Assembly: GCA_903916195.1 (NCBI GenBank)
Contig: CAIWVP010000058.1
Coordinates: forward strand, 1-56,792
From: an uncultured Verrucomicrobiota bacterium
Lineage (GTDB): Bacteria; Verrucomicrobiota; Verrucomicrobiia; Limisphaerales; UBA9464
Length of the DNA: 56,792 nt
Direction: 5' to 3'
Shown here: piece after piece, positions 13,268 through 53,432 of the stretch
Numbering within the stretch: the stretch's first letter is position 1
Layout of the letters: the number at the start of each line of letters is the position of its first letter
Translations under genes and position numbers: made by a program
The notes under the pieces: model-generated
Seen by the model: the letters and a program-made list of their open reading frames with translations, nothing else
Database searches by the model: none
Told to the model about the DNA's origin: nothing

Positions 13268-13909
13268 ATGCGACCTTATTCGGCAGTCATCTTCGACATG
13301 GACGGCGTCATCGTGGACAGCGAGCCGCGCCACGAGCAGGCGTTCCTCGACGTCTTCCGCGATCTCGGCCGCGGCGACACCCACGGGATCCACTTCCCCG
13401 ACTACTACGGCCGGTCGGACCAGGCGGTGTGGATCGATTTCGTGGCGCGCCACCAGCCGGAACAAACCCTCGAAGAACTGACCCTCCGGAAGAAGGATCG
13501 CTTCCTTCAGTTGATCCGCGAGGCCCGACCGATCTTCCCGGGGATCCCCGAACTGGTGGCGAAGCTCGCGGCTTCGACCCGCCTCGCCGTCGCCTCGGGA
13601 TCGTCCCATGAGGTCATCGAGGTGGTGCTCGGGATGCGCGGCCTGAAGGCCCATTTCCCGGTGGTGGTGAGCTCGCAGGACGTTCTGCGCGGCAAGCCGG
13701 CGCCGGATGTCTTTCTCCGCGCCGCGGAACGGCTCGGGGTCGCGCCGGAAGGATGCGTGGTGATCGAGGATGCCGCCGCCGGCGTCGCCGCGGCCCGGGC
13801 GGCCGGGATGCGCGTCATCGGCATCACCAACTCGCTCCCGGCCGAGAAGCTGGCCGACGCCCACGCGGTGGTCTCCGGCTACGCCGAGATCGAGCGCCTG
13901 CTGCTCTAG
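13268..13909 (+). CDS. HAD-superfamily phosphatase (beta-phosphoglucomutase/phosphoglycolate phosphatase-like)
   Basis: 213 residues. All HAD motifs are visible: IFDMDGVIVDSEP (nucleophile and acid/base Asp), VASGSS (motif II), GKPAPDVFL (motif III Lys), VIEDAAAGVAAARAAGM (motif IV). The helical cap lies between residues about 18 and 85. Such proteins dephosphorylate small sugar phosphates or isomerise them; substrate cannot be told from sequence. Start ATG 13268 gives the normal HAD N-terminus directly before motif I. Confidence 0.9.
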   Translation: MRPYSAVIFDMDGVIVDSEPRHEQAFLDVFRDLGRGDTHGIHFPDYYGRSDQAVWIDFVARHQPEQTLEELTLRKKDRFLQLIREARPIFPGIPELVAKLAASTRLAVASGSSHEVIEVVLGMRGLKAHFPVVVSSQDVLRGKPAPDVFLRAAERLGVAPEGCVVIEDAAAGVAAARAAGMRVIGITNSLPAEKLADAHAVVSGYAEIERLLL

Positions 13910-13984
13910 CCCCCAAGGATCGTCCGGGCACAATTCCGTTTCTTGCCGGGAGGTGGCGTCGACTTTGCAAGCCGGAGGCTTGGC

Positions 13985-14167
13985 AGCCATTAGCCGGGGG
14001 GTGAGCGACAGCGACACCCCCGGTGACAAGCGAGGGGACAAGCATCCTACAAGGGGTGCCAGACCACGACCCGGTTGACGGATCTGCGACCCCTGCCGGG
14101 GGCGAGCCGCTGGCCCACAGTATCCGGGGGTGTCGTCGCTGCGCTCCTCACCCCCCGGCTAATGGCT
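13985..14167. repeat. 183-bp inverted-repeat element, MITE-like
   Basis: Left arm 13985-14023 begins AGCCATTAGCCGGGGGGTGA and ends GACACCCCCGG. The right arm, 14124-14167, is its reverse complement apart from small indels in the middle (GCGACAGCGA versus GGAGCGCAGCGACGA). The roughly 100-base centre contains no gene. It occupies the 417-base gap between the HAD and DsbA-like genes; the remaining flanks show nothing recognisable. The structure suggests a non-autonomous mobile element or REP-like unit; no transposase is present in the window. Confidence 0.85.
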
Positions 14168-14326
14168 GACATCGCTCCGTGATGTTCTTGGCGGATCGAT
14201 AGGCTGCAGGAAACTGAGCCGCGCCAGGACCGCCCCCCGGACCCGATTGTCCCCGGCCTATCCAAGTCCGATGCCGATGTGCATCGTCGGGACGCCGCCG
14301 GCGCACCTCTTGAAGATCACCGCGAT

Positions 14327-34989: not shown

Positions 34990-35048
34990 AACTCGATGGC
35001 TATCCCGCGGCCCCGCGTCGATGTACAGCTCAAAGAAGGCCCTGGGGT

Positions 35049-35230
35049 GCGATTGGAAGCGGCGGACACTCGTAGCGCAGGTTTGCTGCCGTATCGCCGA
35101 GTTGCACCCGGCATGGCGTCGGAAAGACCCGGACGCCCACCGGCCGCAGCGCCTGCGGATCCCAGATCCGCGATACGGCAGAGTACAACTCGGCGCTGCT
35201 TTCGCCGAAGTGCCCGCCTCTTCTGACCGC
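35049..35230. repeat. structured dispersed repeat, copy 1
   Basis: About 182 bases between the Imm-like gene and a pseudopilin gene. It shares its layout and long sequence blocks with 51709-51895: GTAGCGCAG near the left, CGCCGAGTTGCAC, CCTGCGGAT, AGATCCGCGATAC and CAACTCGGCGCT near the right. The ends are inverted repeats (GGAAGCGGCGGACACTC against GAAGTGCCCGCCTCTTC). No coding potential; both copies have the same orientation. Confidence 0.85.
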
Positions 35231-35258
35231 ACCCGAAGGCCCCGGGGCCTGATTCATC

Positions 35259-40605: not shown

Positions 40606-43146
40606 ATGGCGCGACACCGTACCCGCTTGTCATCGACCGCAGCAGCCATGCTGGCCGCGGTCGCGTCCGTTTGCACGGCGCTCGCGGCGGGGACGGAGGC
40701 CGTCGACTTCTCCCGGGACATCCTGCCGTTGCTCTCGGACACCTGCTTCTCCTGCCACGGACCGGACGAAGGCGCGCGCAAGGCCAGGCTCCGTCTCGAC
40801 ACCCAGGCAGGCGCGTCGGGCCCGGGCAAGAGCGGCGAACTCGCGGTCGTGCCCGGCCAGAGCGCGAAGAGCGAGATCCTCCGCCGCCTGCTCAGCACCG
40901 ATCCGGACGAGGTGATGCCGCCGCCGAAGTCAAACCGCCGGCTCACGACGCAGCAGATCGACACCGTCCGCCGCTGGATCGATTCCGGCGCGACGTGGGG
41001 ACGCCACTGGTCGCACCAGCCTCCTCGCCGGTCCGCCGTGCCGTCGTCCGCCAGCGGCGTGGCGACGGACCCGCTCCGGCGCGAGCGGAACCCGATCGAT
41101 GCCTTCGTCTTCGCCCGGTTGGCCCGCGAAGGCCTCGCGCCATCGCCTCCCGCACCGGCCGAGACCTTGGTGCGGCGCGTCACCTTGGACCTCACGGGAC
41201 TGCCGCCGACACCGGAGGAGGTCGACGCCTTCGTGCGAGAGACCGCTCCGGACGCCTACGACCGCTTGGTGGACCGGTTGTTGGCGTCGCCGCGCTACGG
41301 CGAGCGGATGGCCTGGGATTGGCTCGAGGCGGCGCGCTACGCGGATTCCAACGGCTATCAAGGAGACAGCGAACGGACGATGTGGCCGTGGCGCGACTGG
41401 GTCGTCGATGCCCTGAACCGCAACCTGTCCTTCGACCAGTTCACCACCTGGCAGCTCGCCGGCGACCTGTTGCCCGAGGCGACGTCCGAGCAGCGGTTGG
41501 CGACCGGGTTCGTGCGCAACCACATGATCAACGGCGAAGGCGGCCGTATCGCCGAAGAGAACCGGATCGACTACCTCTTCGACCAGACCGAGACCGTGGC
41601 CACCATGTGGCTGGGGGCGACCTTCAATTGCACGCGCTGCCACGACCACAAGTTCGACCCCTACACCCAGCGCGATTATTATGGTCTGCTCGCGCTCTTC
41701 AACCGCACCGCGGTGGACGGCAGCGGCGGCGATCCGCAGGCGCGTCCGAACCTGGCGGTTCCCACCGCCGTGCAGACGCAGCGCTTGGGCGACCTGGAGG
41801 CGAAGCTGCTCGTGACCATCCGTGCCACCGAGGACGCGGAGGCGGTCCGGTTCCGGCGCGACGCGGGGCATCCGGTGGAGGAATCGGAGGCGGCGAAGAC
41901 GTTGCCGAAGGAGATCCTCGACCCACTCAAGGTCGCGCCGCGCGATCGTGACAACGGCCGCTTGGAGAAGCTCGCGGCCCACGTGAAGGCATCGGACCCC
42001 GCCTATGCGCAGGTGTTGGACGAGCAGCGCCGCACCCGCGAGGAACGCGACGCCGTTTCGCGGAGCATCCCGAAGGTGATGGTGATGGAGGACCTGCCGA
42101 AGCCGCGCGATACTTTCATCCTCGCCCGCGGCAGCTATCTGAAGCCCGGCGCTCCGGTGGCCGCAGCGGTGCCGGCCGGGTTGGCCCCCTTTCCCGCGGA
42201 CGCGCCGACGAACCGCCTCGGGCTCGCGCGGTGGTTGTCCGCGCCGGGACATCCGCTCACCGCGCGCGTCACCGTGAACCGCTCGTGGCAGATGTTCTTC
42301 GGCATCGGGCTGGTGAAGACGACCGAGGACTTCGGCGTGCAGGGAGAGAAGCCTTCGAACCCGGAGCTGCTCGACTGGCTGGCGACCGAGCTCGAATCGA
42401 GCGGCTGGGACATGAAGCACCTGCACCGGCTCATCCTCACCAGCGCGGTGTACCGGCAATCATCGAAGGTGGCTCCCGCCCTCGCGGAGCGCGATCCGGA
42501 GAACCGCCTGCTGGCGCGGGGCCCGAGGTTCCGCATGCCGTCCTGGATGATCCGCGACGCCGCTCTGGCGGCGTCGGGCCTCGCCACCGGGACGCTCGGC
42601 GGCGCGCCGGTGAAGCCCTACCAACCACCGGGGATCTGGGAGGAGGCGACCTTCGGCGCGAAGCGCTACGTGCCCGACACGGGCGAAGCGCTCTACCGTC
42701 GCAGCGTGTACGTCTTCTGGCGGCGGATCATCGGCCCGACGTTGTTCTTCGATGTCGCCAACCGCCAGACCTGCACGGTGAAGACCCCGCGGACCAACGT
42801 GCCCTTGCACGCGCTGCTGACCCTGAACGACACCACCTACGTCGAAGCCGCGCGGGCCTTGGCGGAACGGGTGCTGCGCGACGGTCCGTCCACGCCCGAG
42901 GCGCGGATCGCCCGGGCGTACCGGTGGGTGCTCGGCCGTGCACCGACCGCGAAGGAGCAGCACGTGCTGGGCGAAGGGTTGCGTCGCCATGAGCGGACTT
43001 TCGCCGCGGATCCCGCGGCCGCGGCCAAGCTGGTCGCGCTCGGCGATTCGGCGCGCGATCCGCGCATCCCGGCGACCGAGCACGCCGCATGGACGGTCCT
43101 GTGCAGCACCATCCTCAACCTCGACGAAGCGCTGACGAAGGAATGA
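40606..43146 (+). CDS. PSCyt1/DUF1549/DUF1553 cytochrome-like protein
   Basis: 846 residues. Signal peptide (STAAAMLAAVASVCTALAAG), cytochrome motif CFSCHG near residue 47 with DPDEVMPPPKSNRRLT as the axial Met region. DUF1549 begins NPIDAFVFARLAREGL (about 163) and contains [13 protein letters not shown] and [20 protein letters not shown] (about 340). DUF1553 follows, with NRLGLARWLSAPGHPLTARV...NRSWQMFFG and VYRQSSKV. Exported, heme-binding, unknown function. Overlaps the DUF1501 gene by ATGA, so the two are made together. Confidence 0.92.
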   Translation: MARHRTRLSSTAAAMLAAVASVCTALAAGTEAVDFSRDILPLLSDTCFSCHGPDEGARKARLRLDTQAGASGPGKSGELAVVPGQSAKSEILRRLLSTDPDEVMPPPKSNRRLTTQQIDTVRRWIDSGATWGRHWSHQPPRRSAVPSSASGVATDPLRRERNPIDAFVFARLAREGLAPSPPAPAETLVRRVTLDLTGLPPTPEEVDAFVRETAPDAYDRLVDRLLASPRYGERMAWDWLEAARYADSNGYQGDSERTMWPWRDWVVDALNRNLSFDQFTTWQLAGDLLPEATSEQRLATGFVRNHMINGEGGRIAEENRIDYLFDQTETVATMWLGATFNCTRCHDHKFDPYTQRDYYGLLALFNRTAVDGSGGDPQARPNLAVPTAVQTQRLGDLEAKLLVTIRATEDAEAVRFRRDAGHPVEESEAAKTLPKEILDPLKVAPRDRDNGRLEKLAAHVKASDPAYAQVLDEQRRTREERDAVSRSIPKVMVMEDLPKPRDTFILARGSYLKPGAPVAAAVPAGLAPFPADAPTNRLGLARWLSAPGHPLTARVTVNRSWQMFFGIGLVKTTEDFGVQGEKPSNPELLDWLATELESSGWDMKHLHRLILTSAVYRQSSKVAPALAERDPENRLLARGPRFRMPSWMIRDAALAASGLATGTLGGAPVKPYQPPGIWEEATFGAKRYVPDTGEALYRRSVYVFWRRIIGPTLFFDVANRQTCTVKTPRTNVPLHALLTLNDTTYVEAARALAERVLRDGPSTPEARIARAYRWVLGRAPTAKEQHVLGEGLRRHERTFAADPAAAAKLVALGDSARDPRIPATEHAAWTVLCSTILNLDEALTKE

Positions 43147-44639
43147 ACCGAACGATGGACCCTCTTCTCCAGCACCGGCTCCAGCTCACGCGCCGCGAGT
43201 TCCTCGGGCGCGGCGCCACCGGTCTCGGCACCGCGGCGTTGGCGATGCTGCTCGGCCGCTCGCCGCTCGCCGCCGCGAGCGCGCCCACGCCCGCCACCGG
43301 CCGGTCGCCGGGTCTGCCCGGCCTGCCCGGCCTGCCGCACTTCACGCCGAAAGCGAAGCGCGTGGTGTATCTCTTCCAGAACGGCGCGCCCACGCACGTC
43401 GATCTTTTCGACTACAAGCCGCGCCTGCTGAAGGAGCATGGCAAGCGCGTCCCGGACGAGTACATCGCCGGCAAGCGCTTCAGCACGATGACGGGCAAGG
43501 CCGACGGCAAGCTGCTGCTCGCCCCGGTCGAGCCCTTCCAGCAACGCGGCCAGAGCGGCGCATGGGTGAGCGACCTGCTGCCGCACACGGCGCGGATCGC
43601 CGACGACCTGTGCTTCGTGAAGAGCCTGCACACGGAGTCGGTGAACCACGCGCCGGGCATCTCGCTGGTGCTGAGCGGCGCGGAGATCCCCGGGCGCCCG
43701 ACGCTCGGTGCCTGGCTGACCTACGGGCTCGGCAGCGACACCGCGGAACTGCCCGCGTTCGTCGTGATGACCTCGGTGAGCAAGGGCACCACCTGCGGCC
43801 AGACCTTCTACGATTTCTATTGGGGCTCGGGCTTCCTGCCGTCGCGGTACCAGGGCGTGAAGTTCCGCGGCAGCGGCGAGCCCGTGCTGTACCTCGGTGA
43901 TCCGGACGGAGTCGACCGCGCGACGCGGCGGGCGATGCTCGACGACCTCGCCGAGCTCAATGACCAAAAGCTCCGCGAGCACGGCGATCCCGAGATCGCC
44001 ACGCGGATCGCGCAGTACGAGATGGCCTTCCGCATGCAGACGAGCGTGCCGGAGCTGAGCGACCTCTCGAAGGAGCCGAAGAGCGTGCTCGACCTCTACG
44101 GGCCCGGAGTGAAGGAACAGGGCACGTTCGCCTACAACTGCCTCATGACGCGGCGGCTCATCGAGCGCGGCGTCCGCTGCGTGCAGGTGATGCACGCCGG
44201 CTGGGACCAGCACAACAGCATCACCACCGAGCTCTACAACCAGTGCCGCGACACCGACCAGGCCTCGGCCGGGCTGGTCGCCGACCTGAAGCAACGCGGC
44301 CTGCTCGACGACACGTTGGTCGTCTGGGGCGGCGAGTTCGGGCGGACACCGTTCATCCAGGGCGCCCTCGACGACCGCAAGCGCTGGGGCCGCGACCATC
44401 ATCCGTACGCCTTCACGAGCTGGCTCGCCGGCGGCGGCGTGAAGGCCGGCCTGAGCTACGGCGAGACCGACGACCTCGCGATGAACGTCATCCGCGACCC
44501 GGTCCATGTGCACGACCTCCAAGCCACCCTCTTGCACCAGCTCGGCATCGACCACGAACGGTTGACCTACCGGTTCCAGGGTCGCGATTTCCGGCTCACC
44601 GATGTGCATGGCACCGTGGTGAAGGGCATCCTCGCATGA
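43143..44639 (+). CDS. DUF1501 protein, Tat-exported
   Basis: 498 residues. Twin-arginine signal LTRREFLGRGATGLGTAALAML, then a collagen-like GLPGLPGLP linker. Conserved motifs are FQNGAPTHVDLFDYKP (His and Asp retained), WGGEFGRTPF and GRDHHPYAFTSWLAGGG, consistent with a metal site of the alkaline-phosphatase-like fold. Predicted extracytoplasmic; possible hydrolase, substrate unknown. Coupled to genes on both sides by ATGA overlaps. Confidence 0.92.
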   Translation: MNRTMDPLLQHRLQLTRREFLGRGATGLGTAALAMLLGRSPLAAASAPTPATGRSPGLPGLPGLPHFTPKAKRVVYLFQNGAPTHVDLFDYKPRLLKEHGKRVPDEYIAGKRFSTMTGKADGKLLLAPVEPFQQRGQSGAWVSDLLPHTARIADDLCFVKSLHTESVNHAPGISLVLSGAEIPGRPTLGAWLTYGLGSDTAELPAFVVMTSVSKGTTCGQTFYDFYWGSGFLPSRYQGVKFRGSGEPVLYLGDPDGVDRATRRAMLDDLAELNDQKLREHGDPEIATRIAQYEMAFRMQTSVPELSDLSKEPKSVLDLYGPGVKEQGTFAYNCLMTRRLIERGVRCVQVMHAGWDQHNSITTELYNQCRDTDQASAGLVADLKQRGLLDDTLVVWGGEFGRTPFIQGALDDRKRWGRDHHPYAFTSWLAGGGVKAGLSYGETDDLAMNVIRDPVHVHDLQATLLHQLGIDHERLTYRFQGRDFRLTDVHGTVVKGILA

Positions 44640-47600
44640 ACGGCGCCGCGGCATCGCAGGGCGGGCGCCGCGCGCGGATCCGGACGCGGATCACCGGCTT
44701 CGCCGCGGTCGCGATGACCATGGCCGGGATCTTGGCGGGGCCAAGCACCGTGGAAGCCGCGCCGGCCGCGGACCGCGCGAAGGACTGGTGGTCGTTCCAG
44801 CCCATCCGCCAAGTCGTGCCGCCGGCGGCACGGTCGGCCGGCGAGATGCGCTCACCGATCGACGCCTTCATCCTCGCCAAGCTGGAGGAACAAGGGATCG
44901 CGCCCGGTCCGGCGGCCGACCGGGACACGTTGCTCCGCCGCGCGACGCTCGACCTCACCGGACTTCCGCCGACCCCGGCCGAGACCGCAGCGTTCCTCGC
45001 GGACGCCGCGCCCGACGCCTTCGCGAAGGTCGTCGAGCGCCTGCTCGCCAGCCCGCGCCACGGCGAACGCTGGGCTCAGCAGTGGCTCGACGTCGTGCGC
45101 TACGCCGACACCGACGGCTTCGAGGTCAACACCGAGCGGCCCAACGCATGGCCCTACCGCGACTACGTCGTCCGCGCCTTCAACAGCGACAAACCGTACG
45201 ACCGGTTCGTCCACGAGCAGCTCGCCGGCGATGTCTCGGGCGAAGACGCGGCGACAGGCTTCCTCGTGGCCTCGGCGGTGTTGCTGCCCGGCCAGATCGG
45301 CGCGGACGACGTCTCGAAGCGCCTCGCGCGGCAGGACGCGCTGAGCGAGATCGTCGGCTGCACCGGCCAGACTTTCCTCGCCCTGAGCGTCGGATGCGCG
45401 CGCTGCCACGACCATAAGTTCGACCCCATCCCGCAGCGCGACTACTACGCGATGCAGGCCTTCTTCGCCGGCGTGGCCTACGGCGACCGTCCGGTCCGCA
45501 CCACCGGGACCGAAGCGCGGCTGCGCGAAGCCGCGGCGCTCCGGCCGGGGCTCGCCCGCATCGACGACGCGCTGGCCCGCTTCGAGCCGGTCGCACAGGT
45601 CCTGACCGGACGCCGCGCCGCGCCGGATGCGCGCACGAACGTCGTGACGTTCCCGCCGCTCGAGGCCCGGTTCGTCCGCTTCACCATCCACGACACCGGC
45701 CTGCATCCCACGCTGGGGCTGATCGAGCCGTGCATCGATGAGCTGGAGGTCTTCACCGACGAAGCGGTCCCGCGGAACATCGCGCTGGCCGGTCTCGGCA
45801 CGAAGTGCACCGCCTCCGGCAGCCGCGCCTCGGGCAGCCACCGGCTGGAGCACCTCAACGACGGACGGTACGGCAACGCGAAGAGCTGGATGTCCGACGA
45901 GCCGGGGCGCGGCTGGGTGCTGTTCGAGCTGCCGGCGCAAACGCGCATCGGCAAGGTCGTGTGGAGCCGCGACCGCGAAGGCGCCTTCAGCGACCGCACT
46001 CCGACCGCCTACACCCTCGAAGCCGGCCCGACGTCCGGGACGATGACGCGCCTCGCCCATGTCCCGCCGCCTCGCGCCGCGGTCAACCTGGGACGGAACA
46101 CCGACCGTTTCGCTCCTGTTTCGGCGCGCCGCCTGCGCTTCACCATCGAGGAATGCACCTCGCTCGAACCCTGCCTCGACGAGCTGGAGGTCTTCACCGC
46201 CGGACCGTCTCCGCAGAACGTCGCGCTCGCTTCAGCGGGCACGACCGCCAGCGCATCGGGCACCTTGCCGGGCTCTGACCGCCACACGCTGGCGCACCTG
46301 AACGACGGCCGCTTCGGCAACGAGCACAGCTGGATCGCCGCGACCCAAGGCAAGGGCAGCGTCGAGCTGACCTTCGCGGGACCCGAGCTGATCGACCGCG
46401 TGGTCTGGGGCCGCGACCGCGAAGGAAAGTTCACCGACCGGTTGCCCACGCGATATCGCATCGAGGTCGCGGACGCCGCCGCCGGTTGGCGCAAGGTCGC
46501 GGGCGACGAGGACCGCCGGCCGTTCTCGCCGACCGCGAAGTTCCCTGCCCCGGTCTCCGTCGCCGGTCTCGCCCCGGACGAGGCGAAGATAGCGGCGGGC
46601 CTGCTCGACGAACGCAAGCGCCTCGACGCGCGCATCACCGAGCTCTCCAAGGTGCCGATGGTCTACGCCGGCGTCTTCTCCGAGCCTGAGACCACGCGCG
46701 TGCTGCACCGTGGCGATCCGGAACAACCCAAGGACCTGGTCGCGCCGACGGTGCTCTCCGCGCTCGGCACGCTCTCGATGCCGGCCGACTCGGCCGATCC
46801 GCGACGCCGGCTCGCGTTGGGCGATTGGATCACCGGCCCGGCCGCTCCGCTCACGGCCCGCGTGATGGCGAACCGCATCTGGCAAGGCCACTTCGGCGTC
46901 GGCTTGGTGGAGACGGCCAGCGACTTCGGCACGATGGGCGCGCGGCCGACGCATCCCGGACTGCTCGAATGGCTCGCCGGCGAATTCGTCCGGTCCGGTT
47001 GGTCGGTGAAGCACCTGCACCGGCTCATCCTCGGCTCGGCGACCTACGCGCGGTCCGGCCGGATCGATCGCGTCGCGCTGGCGAAGGACGCGGATTCGCG
47101 CCTGCTCTGGCGCTTCCCGTCGCGCCGGCTGGAAGCCGAGACCCTCCGCGACTCGATGCTGGCGGTGAGCGGACGGCTCGACCTCAAGGCCGGTGGACGC
47201 GGCTTCGATCTGTTCCGGTCGCGCGGCGGTTTGGACGGCTTCCCGCCGATCGAGTCGTTCGGACCCGAAGGACTCCGCCGCATGATCTACGCCCACAAGG
47301 TCCGCATGGAGCGCGAGTCGGTCTTCGGTGCCTTCGACTGTCCCGATGCGGGCCAGACCACCGCGCGCCGCCGGCAATCCACCACGCCCATCCAGGCGCT
47401 GAACCTCTTCAACAGCCGCTTCACGCTCGATGAGGCGAAGGCGTTTGCCGCGCGGATCGAGACCGAGGCCGGGCCGGGCGCGGATCCGGCCGCGAAGGCC
47501 CGCCTCGCCTACCAGCTCGCGTTCGGACGGGTCCCCGGGCCGGACGAACTGGCTTCCGCGGTCCCGCTCGTCGCCGGGCACGGTCTGGCGACGCTGTGCC

Positions 47601-47641
47601 GCGTCCTGTTCAACTCCAGCGAGTTCCTGTTCCTTCCATGA
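44636..47641 (+). CDS. DUF1549/DUF1553 protein with two discoidin-like domains and no N-terminal cytochrome
   Basis: 1001 residues. After a signal-like N-terminus it enters DUF1549 directly ([16 protein letters not shown], about residue 75; [18 protein letters not shown] about 258), so the PSCyt1 heme domain is missing. Residues about 344-480 and 495-627 are two homologous copies of a coagulation factor 5/8 C-like unit: each has RFTI...CIDELEVFT or [15 protein letters not shown](Y/F)GN, and VVW(S/G)RDREG. DUF1553 follows ([26 protein letters not shown]). Such domains normally bind glycans. Stop overlaps the next DUF1501 gene. Confidence 0.9.
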
Positions 47642-49110
47642 ATCCGCGCGCCGCCGACCTCTCCGTCACCGGACGCCATCTGCTCGACCGCCGCGGATTC
47701 CTCTCCCGCACCGCCACCGGCCTCGGCGCCATCGCGCTGGCCGACCTGCTGGGCGGTGACGGATTGCTGGCCGCTGCTCGGCCGGTCATCGATCCGGCGC
47801 GGCCGTACGCCCCGCGCCTGCCGCATCATCCGGCCAAGGCGCGCAACGTGCTGGTCATCTTCTGCGCCGGCGCGGTGAGCCAACTGGAGACGTTCGACTT
47901 CAAGCCCGAGCTGATCAAGCACGACGGCAAACCCTTGGCCGGCGGGCCGCCGGTCACGTTCCAAGGCCCCTCCGGCGAACTAGCCAAGCCGCAGTACGCG
48001 TTCCGACCGCGCGGCCGGTCCGGCAAGATGATCTCCGATCTCGTGCCGCATCTCGGCGGGCTGGTGGACGACTTCGCCTTCGTCCATTCGCTCACCAGCA
48101 AGACCAACACGCACGGGCCGGCGGAGAACTTCCTCTCGACCGGGTTCGTGCCGGACGGGTTCCCGAGCATCGGCGCGTGGGTGACCTATGCGCTGGGCAG
48201 CGAGGACCAGGACCTGCCCGCCTTCGTGGCCATCCCGGATCCTCGCGGCGTGCCGCAGGCGAGCGTCAACAACTGGGGCCCTGGCTTCCTGCCGGCGGAG
48301 TTCCAAGGAACGCCGTTCAGCACCAAGGAACCGGTCCGCAACCTCGCGCCGCCCGCGGACATCCTGCCGGCGACGGACCGCGCCGCTCGTTCGTTCCTGC
48401 AGGAGATGAACCGGCGCCATCTGGAGCAGAACCCGGCCGACGGCAACCTCGCCGCGCGCATCGCCAGCTACGAGCTGGCGGCCCGCATGCAGCTGAGCGT
48501 GCCGGCCATCAGCGACCTCTCGACCGAACCGGCGCACATCCTCAAGGCCTACGGAGCGGACGACACACGGAACCCGACGAAGGCCGCCTTCGCCCGCAAC
48601 TGCATCCTCGCCCGCCGCCTCGTCGAGCGAGGGGTGCGCTTCGTGCAGCTCTTCAACGGCGCCTACGCCAGCGGCGGAGAGTTGAACTGGGACGGCCATA
48701 ACAAGCTCAAGGAACAGTACGACAAGCACGCCGCCATCATGGACCAGCCCGCGGCCGCGCTGATCACCGACCTGCGGCAGCGCGGGTTGCTGGAGGACAC
48801 GCTCGTGGTGTGGTGCACGGAGTTCGGCCGCATGCCGATGTTCCAGAAGGGCGCGCAAGGCCGCGACCACAACCCCGACGGTTTCACCTGCTTCCTCACC
48901 GGCGCCGGGGTCCGGCGCGGCGTGAGCCACGGCGTCACCGATGAACTCGGCCGCCGCGCGGTGCAGGACGTCCTGTCGATCCACGACCTCAACGCGACCC
49001 TCCTCCACCTGCTCGGCCTCGACCACGAGGCGCTCACCTTCCAGCACAACGGCATCGAACGCCGCCTCACCGACGTCCACGGCAAAGTGATCCGCGAGAT
49101 CCTGGTGTGA
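47638..49110 (+). CDS. DUF1501 protein, divergent first motif
   Basis: 490 residues. Twin-arginine-type signal [22 protein letters not shown]. The first motif reads [18 protein letters not shown], lacking the G-P-S-H-x-D found in the copies at 43143 and 51957. The second and third motifs are normal ([30 protein letters not shown]), as is the end [18 protein letters not shown]. Paired with the discoidin-containing DUF1553 protein. If His/Asp of motif one are metal ligands in the family, this copy must bind metal differently or not at all. Confidence 0.9.
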
Positions 49111-49204: not shown

Positions 49205-51613
49205 CTACTTCGTGCGCTGGACGCGGGTCGGCGCGGAGAGGGTCTTCACGGTGACGACGACCTTCGGAGGCGTCGGGCCGTTGAAGGCGCAGTCGAAGCG
49301 CACCGCGTTCTTGCCGGGCTGGACCTTCGGCAGCACGCCCGTCAGCGGCACCGACCGGATCTGGCTGCCCTTGGCGTCGTAGATGCGGGCGACGCCGTCG
49401 CCTTCGACCAAGACCGATTGCCCCGCCTGCACCTCGACTGGGATGGTCAGCGAGGCGGCCCGGCCGATCTCCAGCACCGGGTCCACGATCGAACCGCTCG
49501 TCCCGATGGCGCGCAGCTTCAACTGGAGTCCTTGCAGCCCGTCCGGATTGTCGAATTCCCACTGTGCCGCCGTCGGTTCGCCCGGCTGGAGCGTGCGCTG
49601 TTCGTGGACGAGCTCGGCGGAATCGCGCAACGGGTACAGGTCCCACTCGCCTTCGGCCACGCGCTCCAGATGGAACTCGCGCTTCGGGTCGCGCAACCGC
49701 TCCCGCTGCGCCGCGGTGAAGGCACCGCCGCGGCGGGCCGATTCCCATTCGCGGATGGCGTCGAGGATCCGCCCGGTCGCGGCGTTCTTACGCAGCGCCG
49801 TCGGGCTCGTCGCCAAGGCGAAGCCCGCGTCGAATCCGGCCGCGCGCGCCAAGGTCCACTCCATGTCCGACACGCAGGTGGTCGGCGTGAGCAGATACCA
49901 GCCGAGCATCTTGGGGATGTAGTTCCGCTCGCAGAACGCCTGGTTGTTGATCCGGTACTCCTGCATGCTGTCGCGGAATCCCCCGTACCACGGCTCGCCC
50001 CAGTTGCAGTAGCTGTTGAAGTGCCAGTAGAAGTGCGACAAGGGCGGGCTCGTCCCGTTGATGACCGTCGCATCGAGATGGTCGTGGAACTCCTTCGCGA
50101 AGACCTCGTTGCCGTACGTCCCCTGCCCCGGCGCGAGACAGCCCTCGTGGCCGTCGAAATCCATGTGGGTCAACCCCGTCTCGTTGAAGCGCCGAGCCAG
50201 GTTCCGCGCGATCTCCCGCAGCAGGTCCATGTCCGGGAAGAACACGCGGTACGAATGGTCCATCAGCTTGCCCGCCGCCTCGCCCTTGGCGTGCGCCGCA
50301 GCGACGGTGCCGAACGCGCCCCGCGTGCAATCGAGCAGCTTCCACGGCGCCTCCGCCGACACCGCCCGATAGCGCACCAGTTCTTGGCCGATCATCACCG
50401 TGTGCATCTCGTTGCGGTCCTGCTGGGCGAAGTATCGGGGCGATTCCACCCCGATCTCCGTCGCCGCGGCGTCCACCGCCTCGGTCAGCGGGCTCGACCC
50501 GGTCCGCACCAACCGCGGGTCCGGCACCGGCGTGACGTACGGGTCGGTGGGCTGGATGAAGTCCGACAACGTGTGCGCGCCGAGACGGATGCCCAGCGCC
50601 TTCGCCTTGTCGGCGCACGCCTTCAGGCCCGCGACGCCGCCGGGGAAGAACTTCGGGCTCGGCTCGAAATGGCCCCAGCTCTTGAAGGCGTTGCCATGAT
50701 AGAGGCTCATGAGGTCCGCGCGCTTCACATAGCCCAGCATCTCGTCCACATCCGCCTCCGAGAAATCCGCGATGAGATAGGACCGTCCGCGCTGCGGCGA
50801 GACCTTGGCCCAGACGCCGTCGATCAGCGGATGGGGCAGCTTCTCCGCCACCTCGATCTTGCCGATAGTAGCCAGGGCGTCCGCCTCTGCGCCGCCGAAG
50901 AGCGCGATGCGCGACCCGAGCACCGTCTCGCCCGGGATGGGCCCGACCGGCATGTCCGGCGCACGCTTGCCCCACACGGCGATCGACCGCGGCTTGGAGC
51001 GGTCCATCGAGTACGCTTGGAGCACGCTGCCCCAGGCGGTGCCGCGGGCCGCGTACGGTTGGTCCGCGCTGCCTTCGTCGTTGTCGGGGAAGCCGCCGAG
51101 CGTCTTCGTGTTCAATGATTGCAAGCCGAAGGCCGAATCCCCGTCGCGCACCACGCCGACCACTTCGCCCACCGTCTTGCCGAGCACCAGCGGATACGGT
51201 CCCCACAGCACCAGGTCCACCCGGTCGAGCGGCCGCAACTCGACAAGCTCGAACACGACGTGGCTGCCCTTGGCCTCGGCCCGGACCACCGCCGTGACGT
51301 CCGCCGCGGTGAAGCGGAGCGAGAGCTTGCCCGAATCGGCATCCCAGGACGCCAGGTCCGGCGCGTGGAGCTTCTGGGCCACGCGGACGCTCAGCAGCGG
51401 TGCCAGCTGGCCGGGCGCGAGCAGGTCCCGGCCCGTGCCCTTGCGCGCAACGGAGGCCAGCGAGCCCTTGGCGTCGATGCCGAACACGGCGCCATCGGTC
51501 GCGAACGTGGCGACCGGAGCCGCCGCTGTCGCCACCGCGCCTGCGAAGGCGACCGCCACGAGCCACACCGCAACGAAGCACCGGCATCGGAAAACGACCG
51601 AGAATGGGGACAT
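49205..51613 (-). CDS. large secreted protein of unknown family, possible TIM-barrel glycosidase
   Basis: 802 residues from ATG 51613, with signal peptide (VAVWLVAVAFAGAVATAAA). I do not recognise a named family. Residues about 35-200 look like an N-terminal beta-sandwich. The middle has barrel-like strand patterns: YLIADFSEADVDEML, LMSLYHGNAFKSWGHF, CADKAKALGIRLGAHTLSDF, GLTHMDFDGHEGC, LDATVINGTSPPLSHFYWHF. Asp/Glu in MDFDGHEG are candidate catalytic acids. The last 110 residues are again beta-rich with DGVARIYDAKGSQIRS. Transcribed against the flanking DUF1501/DUF1553 pairs; a role in polysaccharide breakdown is inference. Confidence 0.7.
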   Translation of the reverse strand: MSPFSVVFRCRCFVAVWLVAVAFAGAVATAAAPVATFATDGAVFGIDAKGSLASVARKGTGRDLLAPGQLAPLLSVRVAQKLHAPDLASWDADSGKLSLRFTAADVTAVVRAEAKGSHVVFELVELRPLDRVDLVLWGPYPLVLGKTVGEVVGVVRDGDSAFGLQSLNTKTLGGFPDNDEGSADQPYAARGTAWGSVLQAYSMDRSKPRSIAVWGKRAPDMPVGPIPGETVLGSRIALFGGAEADALATIGKIEVAEKLPHPLIDGVWAKVSPQRGRSYLIADFSEADVDEMLGYVKRADLMSLYHGNAFKSWGHFEPSPKFFPGGVAGLKACADKAKALGIRLGAHTLSDFIQPTDPYVTPVPDPRLVRTGSSPLTEAVDAAATEIGVESPRYFAQQDRNEMHTVMIGQELVRYRAVSAEAPWKLLDCTRGAFGTVAAAHAKGEAAGKLMDHSYRVFFPDMDLLREIARNLARRFNETGLTHMDFDGHEGCLAPGQGTYGNEVFAKEFHDHLDATVINGTSPPLSHFYWHFNSYCNWGEPWYGGFRDSMQEYRINNQAFCERNYIPKMLGWYLLTPTTCVSDMEWTLARAAGFDAGFALATSPTALRKNAATGRILDAIREWESARRGGAFTAAQRERLRDPKREFHLERVAEGEWDLYPLRDSAELVHEQRTLQPGEPTAAQWEFDNPDGLQGLQLKLRAIGTSGSIVDPVLEIGRAASLTIPVEVQAGQSVLVEGDGVARIYDAKGSQIRSVPLTGVLPKVQPGKNAVRFDCAFNGPTPPKVVVTVKTLSAPTRVQRTK

Positions 51614-51708
51614 GGGCCGACGATCTCAAAGCGCCCGCCCGGAACGCCAGCCTGTTCGCTCGCACTCATGGGTTTCATTGGCCAGCGGGGCATCCCGACG
51701 TCCGAGAT

Positions 51709-51895
51709 GCGACCGGAAGTGGCGCACTCTTGTAGCGCAGAGTTGTGCTCTGCTGTTTCGCCGAGTTGCACTCGGCAGGGCCGCGGCGAACCCGACCCGC
51801 TCACCTGCCGAACGGCCTGCGGATTCCAGATCCGCGATACAGCGGAGTGCAACTCGGCGCTACTTCTGCCACAGCCTCGGGCCACTTCGGGTCGC
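51709..51895. repeat. structured dispersed repeat, copy 2
   Basis: About 187 bases filling most of the 343-base gap between the 802-residue protein gene and a DUF1501 gene. Outer ends GCGACCGGAAGTGGC and GCCACTTCGGGTCGC are near-perfect inverted repeats. An inner pair (51732-51756, GTAGCGCAGAGTTG..., and 51839-51863, ...CAACTCGGCGCTAC) is also inverted. Local hairpins GCAGAG/CTCTGC and GCCGAG/CTCGGC lie inside. Same layout as 35049-35230. Confidence 0.85.
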
Positions 51896-51956
51896 GCCTT
51901 CGCGATTCTTCGGTTCCCCCGGCGCCGCGGTGCGTCCATGCTGCCGGTAGCTTCCC

Positions 51957-53432
51957 ATGGACGAATCTCTTCTCGCCGCCCTCGACACCGCGGGGATTGT
52001 CTCACGCCGGCGCTTCCTCGCGCGCAACGCCATGGGCGTCGGCAGCGTGGCGCTCGCCTGGTTGCTGCGCGAAGAGCGCCTGCTCGCGACGCCGCCCGAC
52101 ATGCCGCGCGGGCCCCGCTCCTTCGACCTGCGTCCAAAGCCCCCGGCGCTCGTGCCGCGCGCGAAGGCGATGATCTCGCTCTTCATGCACGGCGGTCCGA
52201 GCCACATGGACCTGCTCGACCCGAAGCCGGAGCTGACCAAACGCAGCGGCCAGGACTACGCGGGCGAGGTCACCTTCAGCTTCGTCGACCGCGCCAGCAA
52301 GAAGCTGTTCGGCAGCCCGTGGCAGTTCAAACGACATGGCCAGTGCGGGACGCCGGTGTCCGAGCTCTTGCCGCATTTCGCGGGGATCGTGGACGACGTC
52401 ACCGTGATCCGCTCGATGCACACGGACATCAACGGCCACGAGCCGTCGATCTGGTTCATGAACACCGGCCGCGCCCAGCCCGGCCGGCCCGCGCTGGGCT
52501 CATGGCTGACCTACGGGCTCGGTTCCGAGAGCCAGAGCCTGCCTGCCTACGTCGTGCTCACCGATCCGGGCGGCCATCCGGTGGACGGCGTGCGGAACTG
52601 GTCGAACGGCTTCATGCCCCCGCTCTTCCAGGGCACCGTGGTGCGTTCCGCCGAACCTCGCATCCTCAACCTCGATCCGCCGCCGCATCTGAAGGGCGCG
52701 TTGCAGGAGCAGAACCTCGCCTTCCTCGCCCGCTTGAACCGCGACCATCTCGCGCGGCACCCCGGCGAGGCCGACCTCGAGGCCCGCATCGCCAGCTACG
52801 AGCTCGCCGCGCGCATGCAGACCGCGGCCAAGGAGGCGCTCGACCTCGCCGGCGAGAGCGAGGCCACCAAGAAGCTCTACGGCATCGACGACCCGGTCAC
52901 CCGCGAGTACGGCACCCGCTGTCTCATCGCCCGGCGTCTGGTCGAGCGCGGCGTCCGCTTCGTGCAGCTCTTCGTCAACGGCCAGATCTGGGACAACCAC
53001 GAGAACATCAAGACCAACCTCTCGGACTGCTGCCGCAAGACCGACCGGCCGTCCGCCGCGCTCGTGAAGGACCTCAAGGCCCGCGGCCTGCTCGACACCA
53101 CCATCGTCCACTGGGGCGGTGAGATCGGGCGGCTGCCGGTCACCGAGAACCACGGCGCCGCCGAGAAGGCCGGCCGCGACCACAACGGCCAAGGCTTCTC
53201 CAGCTGGGTCGCCGGCGGCGGGTTCAAGGGCGGCATGACCTACGGCGAGACGGATGAGTTCGGCCACAAGGCGGTGATCGATCCGGTCAGCCCCAACGAT
53301 TACCATGCCACGCTCATGCATCTGTTCGGCCTCGACCACGCGGCGCTGACCTATCACCAGAACGGCCAAGGCCAACGCCTCACCGACGGCAAGCCCTGCC
53401 GCGTGGTGAAGGAGATCCTCCGCCACGCATGA
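51957..53432 (+). CDS. DUF1501 protein, Tat-exported
   Basis: 491 residues from ATG 51957. Twin-arginine signal SRRRFLARNAMGVGSVALAWLL. Motifs FMHGGPSHMDLLDPKPEL, HWGGEIGRLPV and GRDHNGQGFSSWVAGGG are complete, so this is the most canonical DUF1501 copy here; IWDNHENIKTNLSDCCRKTD and LTYGLGSESQSLPAYVVL are also family-typical. Gene order is DUF1501 then DUF1553, the reverse of the other pairs. Overlaps the following gene by ATGA. Confidence 0.92.
   Translation: MDESLLAALDTAGIVSRRRFLARNAMGVGSVALAWLLREERLLATPPDMPRGPRSFDLRPKPPALVPRAKAMISLFMHGGPSHMDLLDPKPELTKRSGQDYAGEVTFSFVDRASKKLFGSPWQFKRHGQCGTPVSELLPHFAGIVDDVTVIRSMHTDINGHEPSIWFMNTGRAQPGRPALGSWLTYGLGSESQSLPAYVVLTDPGGHPVDGVRNWSNGFMPPLFQGTVVRSAEPRILNLDPPPHLKGALQEQNLAFLARLNRDHLARHPGEADLEARIASYELAARMQTAAKEALDLAGESEATKKLYGIDDPVTREYGTRCLIARRLVERGVRFVQLFVNGQIWDNHENIKTNLSDCCRKTDRPSAALVKDLKARGLLDTTIVHWGGEIGRLPVTENHGAAEKAGRDHNGQGFSSWVAGGGFKGGMTYGETDEFGHKAVIDPVSPNDYHATLMHLFGLDHAALTYHQNGQGQRLTDGKPCRVVKEILRHA

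Follow-up and report, generated by a model that had tools for sequence, protein, structure and literature searches.

A structured, dispersed repeat directly ahead of a DUF1501 gene raises the question of whether the repeat serves that gene or belongs to something else. In the window (the whole 56,792-nucleotide stretch analysed here), the first-pass annotation had placed the repeat at 51709-51895, described it as two nested sets of terminal inverted repeats plus local hairpins, and suggested that it might lie in the gene's leader and influence expression. We consider it very probable that the repeat is a nested, two-layer, non-autonomous mobile element, in which a MITE-like carrier holds a GTAG-tagged REP doublet (REPIN).

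The borders of the repeat are better set at 51705-51899 (195 bp), with 51709-51895 as its middle. The annotated distance of 61 bases from 51895 to the DUF1501 ATG at 51957 was correct, and the corrected right border at 51899 leaves 57 bp. The intergenic gap measures 343 bp, of which the element takes up 195, and it separates two divergent frames that lie outside the element: the downstream DUF1501 gene (51957-53432, plus strand; PF07394, 463.8 bits) and an upstream reading frame of 802 aa (49205-51613, minus strand) with no Pfam or NCBIfam family. For the upstream frame, one of seven same-genus genomes has a match, 48% identical and spanning residues 10-777. In the closest genome (G003), DUF1501 reaches at most 48% identity, the 802-aa frame has no match, and the locus of this copy was not found. 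The best DUF1501 matches in G001, G006, and G007 lie downstream of a PSD1 gene, whereas here DUF1501 is upstream of PSD1. The window contains three DUF1501 genes (47596-49110, 43089-44639, and 51957-53432), two of them ordered likewise with PSCyt1/PSD1 genes, and the DUF1501 protein has 41 matches in its own genome.

The outer arms, GCGACCGGAAGTGGC (51709-51723) and GCCACTTCGGGTCGC (51881-51895), are 93% complementary over 15 nt and form the inner portion of a 21-bp terminal inverted repeat. Its left end (51705-51725, plus) and right end (51879-51899, minus) are worn, with 4 and 6 mismatches of 21, respectively, to the family consensus, and short junctions separate these ends from the tags of the inner layer. 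The left REP begins with a GTAGC tag (51732-51736, plus), in which GTAG starts at carrier position 28, as in many other carriers. The tag is followed on the plus strand by hairpin word H1 (GCAGAGTTGTGCTCTGC, 51737-51753), the linker TGTTTC (51754-51759; TGTATC in the family form), and hairpin word H2 (GCCGAGTTGCACTCGGC, 51760-51776). By alignment, a central loop region (51777-51818) separates the two REP pairs. Beyond it lie H3 (GCGGATTCCAGATCCGC, 51819-51835, plus), the linker GATACA (51836-51841, minus), which is the inverted counterpart of TGTATC, H4 (GCGGAGTGCAACTCGGC, 51842-51858, minus), and GCTAC (51859-51863, minus), which inverts GTAGC as the tag of the right REP and lies at position 37 counted from the carrier's right end (36 or 37 elsewhere). 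Each of the four hairpin words is 17 nt long, and they correspond to helices 1 to 4 of the structure that we counted. In this copy, the hairpin that follows the tag (GTAGC, then H1, 51732-51753) has a 6-bp stem and a 5-nt loop, while in many other copies the hairpin has a 7-bp stem and a 3-nt loop. As RNA, the repeat folds at -109.1 kcal/mol compared to a shuffle mean of -75.5 (sd 4.4), with none of 200 shuffles as low, in agreement with its description as structured; the minus-strand DNA fold has a z of -4.9.

The element produced 76 BLAST matches in its own genome, many of them a single place read on both strands. The own-genome stretches searched contain 53 non-overlapping core copies, the 51705-51899 copy included and some incomplete in the alignment, and the repeat is thus dispersed, as annotated. 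GTAGC and GCTAC face each other across the 53-copy alignment, consistent with two inverted REPs that behave as a unit. The four local hairpins held standard pairs in 97.7% of cells, compared to 25.8-38.2% when slid by 1-3 columns, and 40 cells were altered on both sides compared to 11.1 (sd 2.5) in shuffles, a covariation beyond that of 500 shuffles. Among mismatches in the hairpins, G-T exceeded A-C (26 vs 10 cells), with 15 of the 26 in H3, nearly all in one column, an excess too concentrated to point to a strand of action. The local hairpins were therefore borne out, while the nested inverted repeats stood only in part: the outer arms belong to the 21-bp ends, and the inner arms (51732-51745 and 51850-51863) are present within a 48-nt arm pair that is 77% complementary, but they do not form a single long pairing that covaries. 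A long-arm structure, in which H1 would pair with H4 and H2 with H3, was rejected, as it was paired in 77.0% of cells and exceeded shuffles on no measure. The appearance of an inner terminal inverted repeat is due to similar words in H1 and H4.

A half-element pattern was found without mismatch in 66 rows among the matches listed, and we gave weight solely to these, because at up to two mismatches the control yielded 45 and 42 against 92 and 88. Inner-layer matches, some of them short and weak, were present in 17 of 96 genomes, own included. The repeat also occurs in tandem, in arrays of period 238. Some of these lie at contig ends, from base 3 of C35, from base 15 of C82, and up to base 62311 of the 62318 of C81.

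For the outer layer, we took a consensus carrier end, GGGTGCGATCGGAAGTGGCGG, from the copy alignment. With up to three mismatches, it occurred at 181 sites in the own genome (91 forward and 90 reverse), compared to 0 + 0 for the reversed control. Across 48 genomes at up to two mismatches, the own genome (122) and G003 (23) alone had the end in abundance; four others had one or two sites each, about the control level. An exact 20-base carrier end was found in eight stretches of the GTDB collection, three of which belong to the Verrucomicrobiales MAG UBA12295, and in two of the eight, both UBA12295, an opposite end was paired with it within 5 mismatches. In 294,606 own-genome bases, we identified 59 facing end pairs within 1.5 kb, mostly 89-533 bp, with terminal inverted repeats and, a 1333-bp pair on C5 apart, no gene inside.

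Next, the flanks of these carriers were compared. One carrier without full flanks and nine inside arrays were left out, and outward shifts of up to 2 were permitted. Of the 49 scored from the 59, 13 matched at 8 or 9 of 9 positions compared to 0.08 expected from mismatched pairings, and 21 matched at 7 or more of 9 compared to 0.96 expected. Without shifts, 9 of 58 carriers matched at 8 or 9 of 9, against a control fraction of 0.0006. The excess of matching flanks peaked at, and was specific to, length 9. There was no duplication at 8 of 9 for 36 of the 49 scored carriers, and the 51705-51899 copy was likewise without one, with a best match of 6/9 near both ends. Duplications flanked carriers of 89, 183-195, and 281-289 bp, indicating that contents differ among carriers with duplications. 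A second carrier of the family lies in the window (35045-35234, plus), with ends at 2 and 3 mismatches and flanks AAGGCCCTG / AAGGCCCCG matching at 8/9. Flanks at 8/9 also bound the C67 array at 13611-14278, which holds three cores (CTGACCGAA / TTGACCGAA). For the C155 and C206 arrays, the outermost ends were accepted at as many as 8 mismatches; these ends are probably spurious, and their flanks did not match.

Two carriers of the own genome, C38:8491-8779 and C38:14845-15037, are both absent from G003, where the 9-bp target remains once. When the own flanks are joined, they agree with G003 at 97 and 109 of 120 positions, and the G003 pieces that match the C38 sites are mostly 91-96% identical. 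The mobility raised by the first-pass annotation thus has support from target duplications of 9 bp and from two exact empty sites, all in other members of the family. No GTAG palindrome was detected by our scan in C38:8491-8779, while C38:14845-15037 holds one and is mosaic, enclosing another, shorter piece of carrier. The carrier C38:8491-8779 (L150 2492-2780) lies at the 3' end of a reading frame, and in G003 the frame continues to its stop codon.

No carrier transposase with these ends was found among six PF01609 loci, where the nearest end had 7 or 8 of 21 mismatches. A 1333-bp end pair on C5 was considered as a parent transposon and rejected; it encloses a biotin-synthase-like frame and no transposase (L106 872-2104). 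Its flanks match at 7/9 only after the largest allowed shifts, which makes it doubtful as a single element and suggests that it probably represents two separate insertions, gene capture between the carrier ends being the less likely reading. A 2.6-kb pair in G003 (C67) was rejected by eye as two shorter carriers flanking ordinary genes.

Most of the paired carriers hold REPs. We scanned for palindromes in which a GTAG or GTGG tag precedes a stem of 6 bp or more without mismatch, and these were present inside 44 of the 59 paired carriers compared to 1 of 61 control stretches 1 kb away. The scan detected no palindrome in the other 15 carriers. Carriers hold three word families, GTAGCGCAG, GTAGGGACGGGC, and GTAGGGCAGGC. 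In the 194-bp class, the tag starts at position 28 counted from one carrier end and at 36 or 37 counted from the opposite end, and in the 51705-51899 copy it lies at 28 and 37. An 89-bp carrier with a single palindrome also has its tag at 28 and 36. Since these positions are common to the 194-bp and 89-bp carriers, contents of different size fill the same place.

We identified a gene for a REP-associated tyrosine transposase (RAYT) on contig C176 (24909-25703, minus strand). Its product matched Pfam Y1_Tnp (26.2 against a cut-off of 23) and NCBIfam REP_Tyr_transpos (NF047646, 3.9e-22; 78.7 bits, under the cut-off of 80), and TnpArep 4er8 was the only solved structure related by sequence (E 2.6e-6). 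In the alignment to 4er8, the HUH histidines correspond, as does the tyrosine that precedes the NP motif, which we take to be the catalytic residue. Inner-layer copies lie on both sides of the gene, linking the REPIN to a RAYT, and the three copies there lack carrier ends (best 6/21 mismatches, L085). The corresponding site in G003 is no clean empty site and contains other DNA. The genome has four Y1_Tnp genes, and such REPs were not seen near any of the other three. The gene that follows the RAYT gene has its start tripled along with REPIN copies (L085 1953-3427, own C176), and the first two repeats are spaced about 239 bp apart, as if a tandem duplication had copied the REPIN and the gene start. 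An IS200-like Y1 gene elsewhere in the genome (L078 1052-2412, own C1) has similar DNA on both sides, with a common conceptual translation.

The association with RAYTs extends to other genomes. The three nearest relatives of the C176 RAYT (62, 59, and 59% identical), all in other genera, have GTAGCGCAG words on both sides, and the next, in G003 (55%), has GTAGGGCAGGC words. The ten best RAYT loci contained 39 GTAG palindromes in 33.3 kb, distributed over 8 of the 10, and all 30 RAYT loci contained 58 in 96.0 kb, over 14 of the 30. By comparison, 19 DUF1501 loci contained 4 in 81.9 kb, in 4 of the 19, although this control is unmatched because its loci come from the own and same-genus genomes and the RAYT loci from the wider order. 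A RAYT match was present in 14 of the 17 genomes with the inner layer compared to 40 of the 79 others (one-sided Fisher p 0.015, kinship ignored), and was absent in G012, G057, and G066.

These results bear on three alternatives to the nested reading. A role as functional leader or cis-regulatory RNA for DUF1501 would fit an element that stands 57 bp ahead of the ATG, folds very stably, and has one terminator-like match in 51560-52000 (0.2, sd 0.5, in shuffles). We nevertheless consider it very unlikely, as at least 53 core copies lie at many other places, the gene setting is divergent, and the gene arrangement is not preserved in the compared same-genus genomes. No sigma-70-like promoter was found in 51560-52000, no Rfam family matched at gathering score anywhere in the window, and the mobile layers account for the fold. 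A plain REPIN or BIME moved by RAYT alone, with the outer inverted repeat included in the REPIN, is similarly improbable. Ends of this kind bound carriers that have other contents or no palindrome, the target duplications are located at the carrier ends, and the three copies at the RAYT gene are without such ends, despite the RAYT-bounded copies, the GTAG tags, and the GTAG palindromes in which RAYT loci elsewhere are rich.

Also very improbable is a plain MITE whose hairpins are its own evolved interior, unrelated to REPs or RAYTs. The same hairpin words occur without carrier ends at the RAYT gene, in genomes where carrier ends are not abundant, and beside the closest RAYTs from other genera, which argues against such an origin even though the duplications and empty sites do belong to the carrier ends. 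Directly observed are the anatomy, the hairpin covariation, the carrier duplications and empty sites, and the RAYT gene with its flanking copies.

According to the nested reading, the outer layer would be a carrier with two 21-bp terminal inverted repeats, moved by a target-duplicating transposase that leaves 9-bp duplications. Judging from the duplications, such an enzyme acts on the carrier in trans, and it would be of the DDE type. The inner REPIN, with its four local hairpins, would be a RAYT substrate, as suggested by the RAYT association and published work on REPs, and RAYT may act on the hairpins as single-stranded DNA. Every REP-bearing carrier would then spread RAYT substrates. The 51705-51899 copy is an old remnant, probably immobile and too worn for a visible duplication; should it influence DUF1501 at all, that would be incidental. 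More tentatively, the layers could form a two-tier partnership, which we regard as possible but rather doubtful. The carrier would offer a fixed landing site at 28/36 where single REPs, double REPINs, and arrays replace each other, the DDE-type transposase would spread RAYT substrates, and RAYT or hairpin-driven recombination would swap the hairpin words. The array-rich contig ends would then reflect activity that continues today.

REP and REPIN populations are assumed to rely on a RAYT present in single copy, and the family described here opens the question of whether another transposase can also disperse RAYT substrates. REPINs within a second, independently mobile carrier provide REP insertions dated through empty sites against a close relative. 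The clear target duplications of the carriers are useful in this respect, as REPs usually leave none. The family is also a warning that such copies should not be taken as riboswitch-like leaders of the adjoining gene.

The available text of Di Nocera et al. 2013 (PMC3733652) describes GTAG REP families in Opitutus terrae, also of the Verrucomicrobia. As far as that text describes them, those REPs share with the repeat here a GTAG or GTGG tag, stems of 6-9 bp and short loops, dimers with the tags outside, stem variants with paired changes, and tandem reiteration along with flanking DNA. The repeat here differs in having two successive hairpins per half (GTAG, then GTAT) and a dimer inside a carrier with 9-bp target duplications. 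A partial precedent in the same text is that of the GTAG-15 dimers of A. variabilis, which are inserted within long palindromes, with no REP-free palindrome found there (PMC3733652). REP dimers lie regularly within a longer inverted repeat in both cases, but the carriers here may also be REP-free or hold other REP families, and target duplications and empty sites were measured for them.

REPINs were defined by Bertels and Rainey 2011 (PMC3116915) and, in the available part of that paper, share with the repeat here an inverted REP doublet near RAYT genes; here there are four hairpins and an outer, transposon-like carrier. RAYTs are described in the accessible portion of Nunvar et al. 2010 (PMC2817692), with 4er8 as a structure, and RAYT genes bounded by REPs or other inverted repeats are mentioned in the available text of PMC3733652. 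The C176 gene agrees with RAYTs as described (PMC2817692) in its aligned HUH and tyrosine and in the inverted REPs that bound it, but it is of a Verrucomicrobia-type lineage and is bounded by double REPINs. Bacterial MITEs, as summarized in the available text of PMC3733652, have inverted ends of 15-30 bp, no coding capacity, a size of 70-300 bp, and target duplications. The carrier resembles them in its inverted ends, lack of coding capacity, size, and target duplications, but most paired carriers here hold REPs, and a parent element was not found among the six PF01609 loci. In the literature searched, which covered few subscription journals, we found no description of the carrier family or of such nesting in Verrucomicrobia. 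The repeat, as a REPIN/RAYT system joined to a MITE, is a combination of known parts with partial published precedent.
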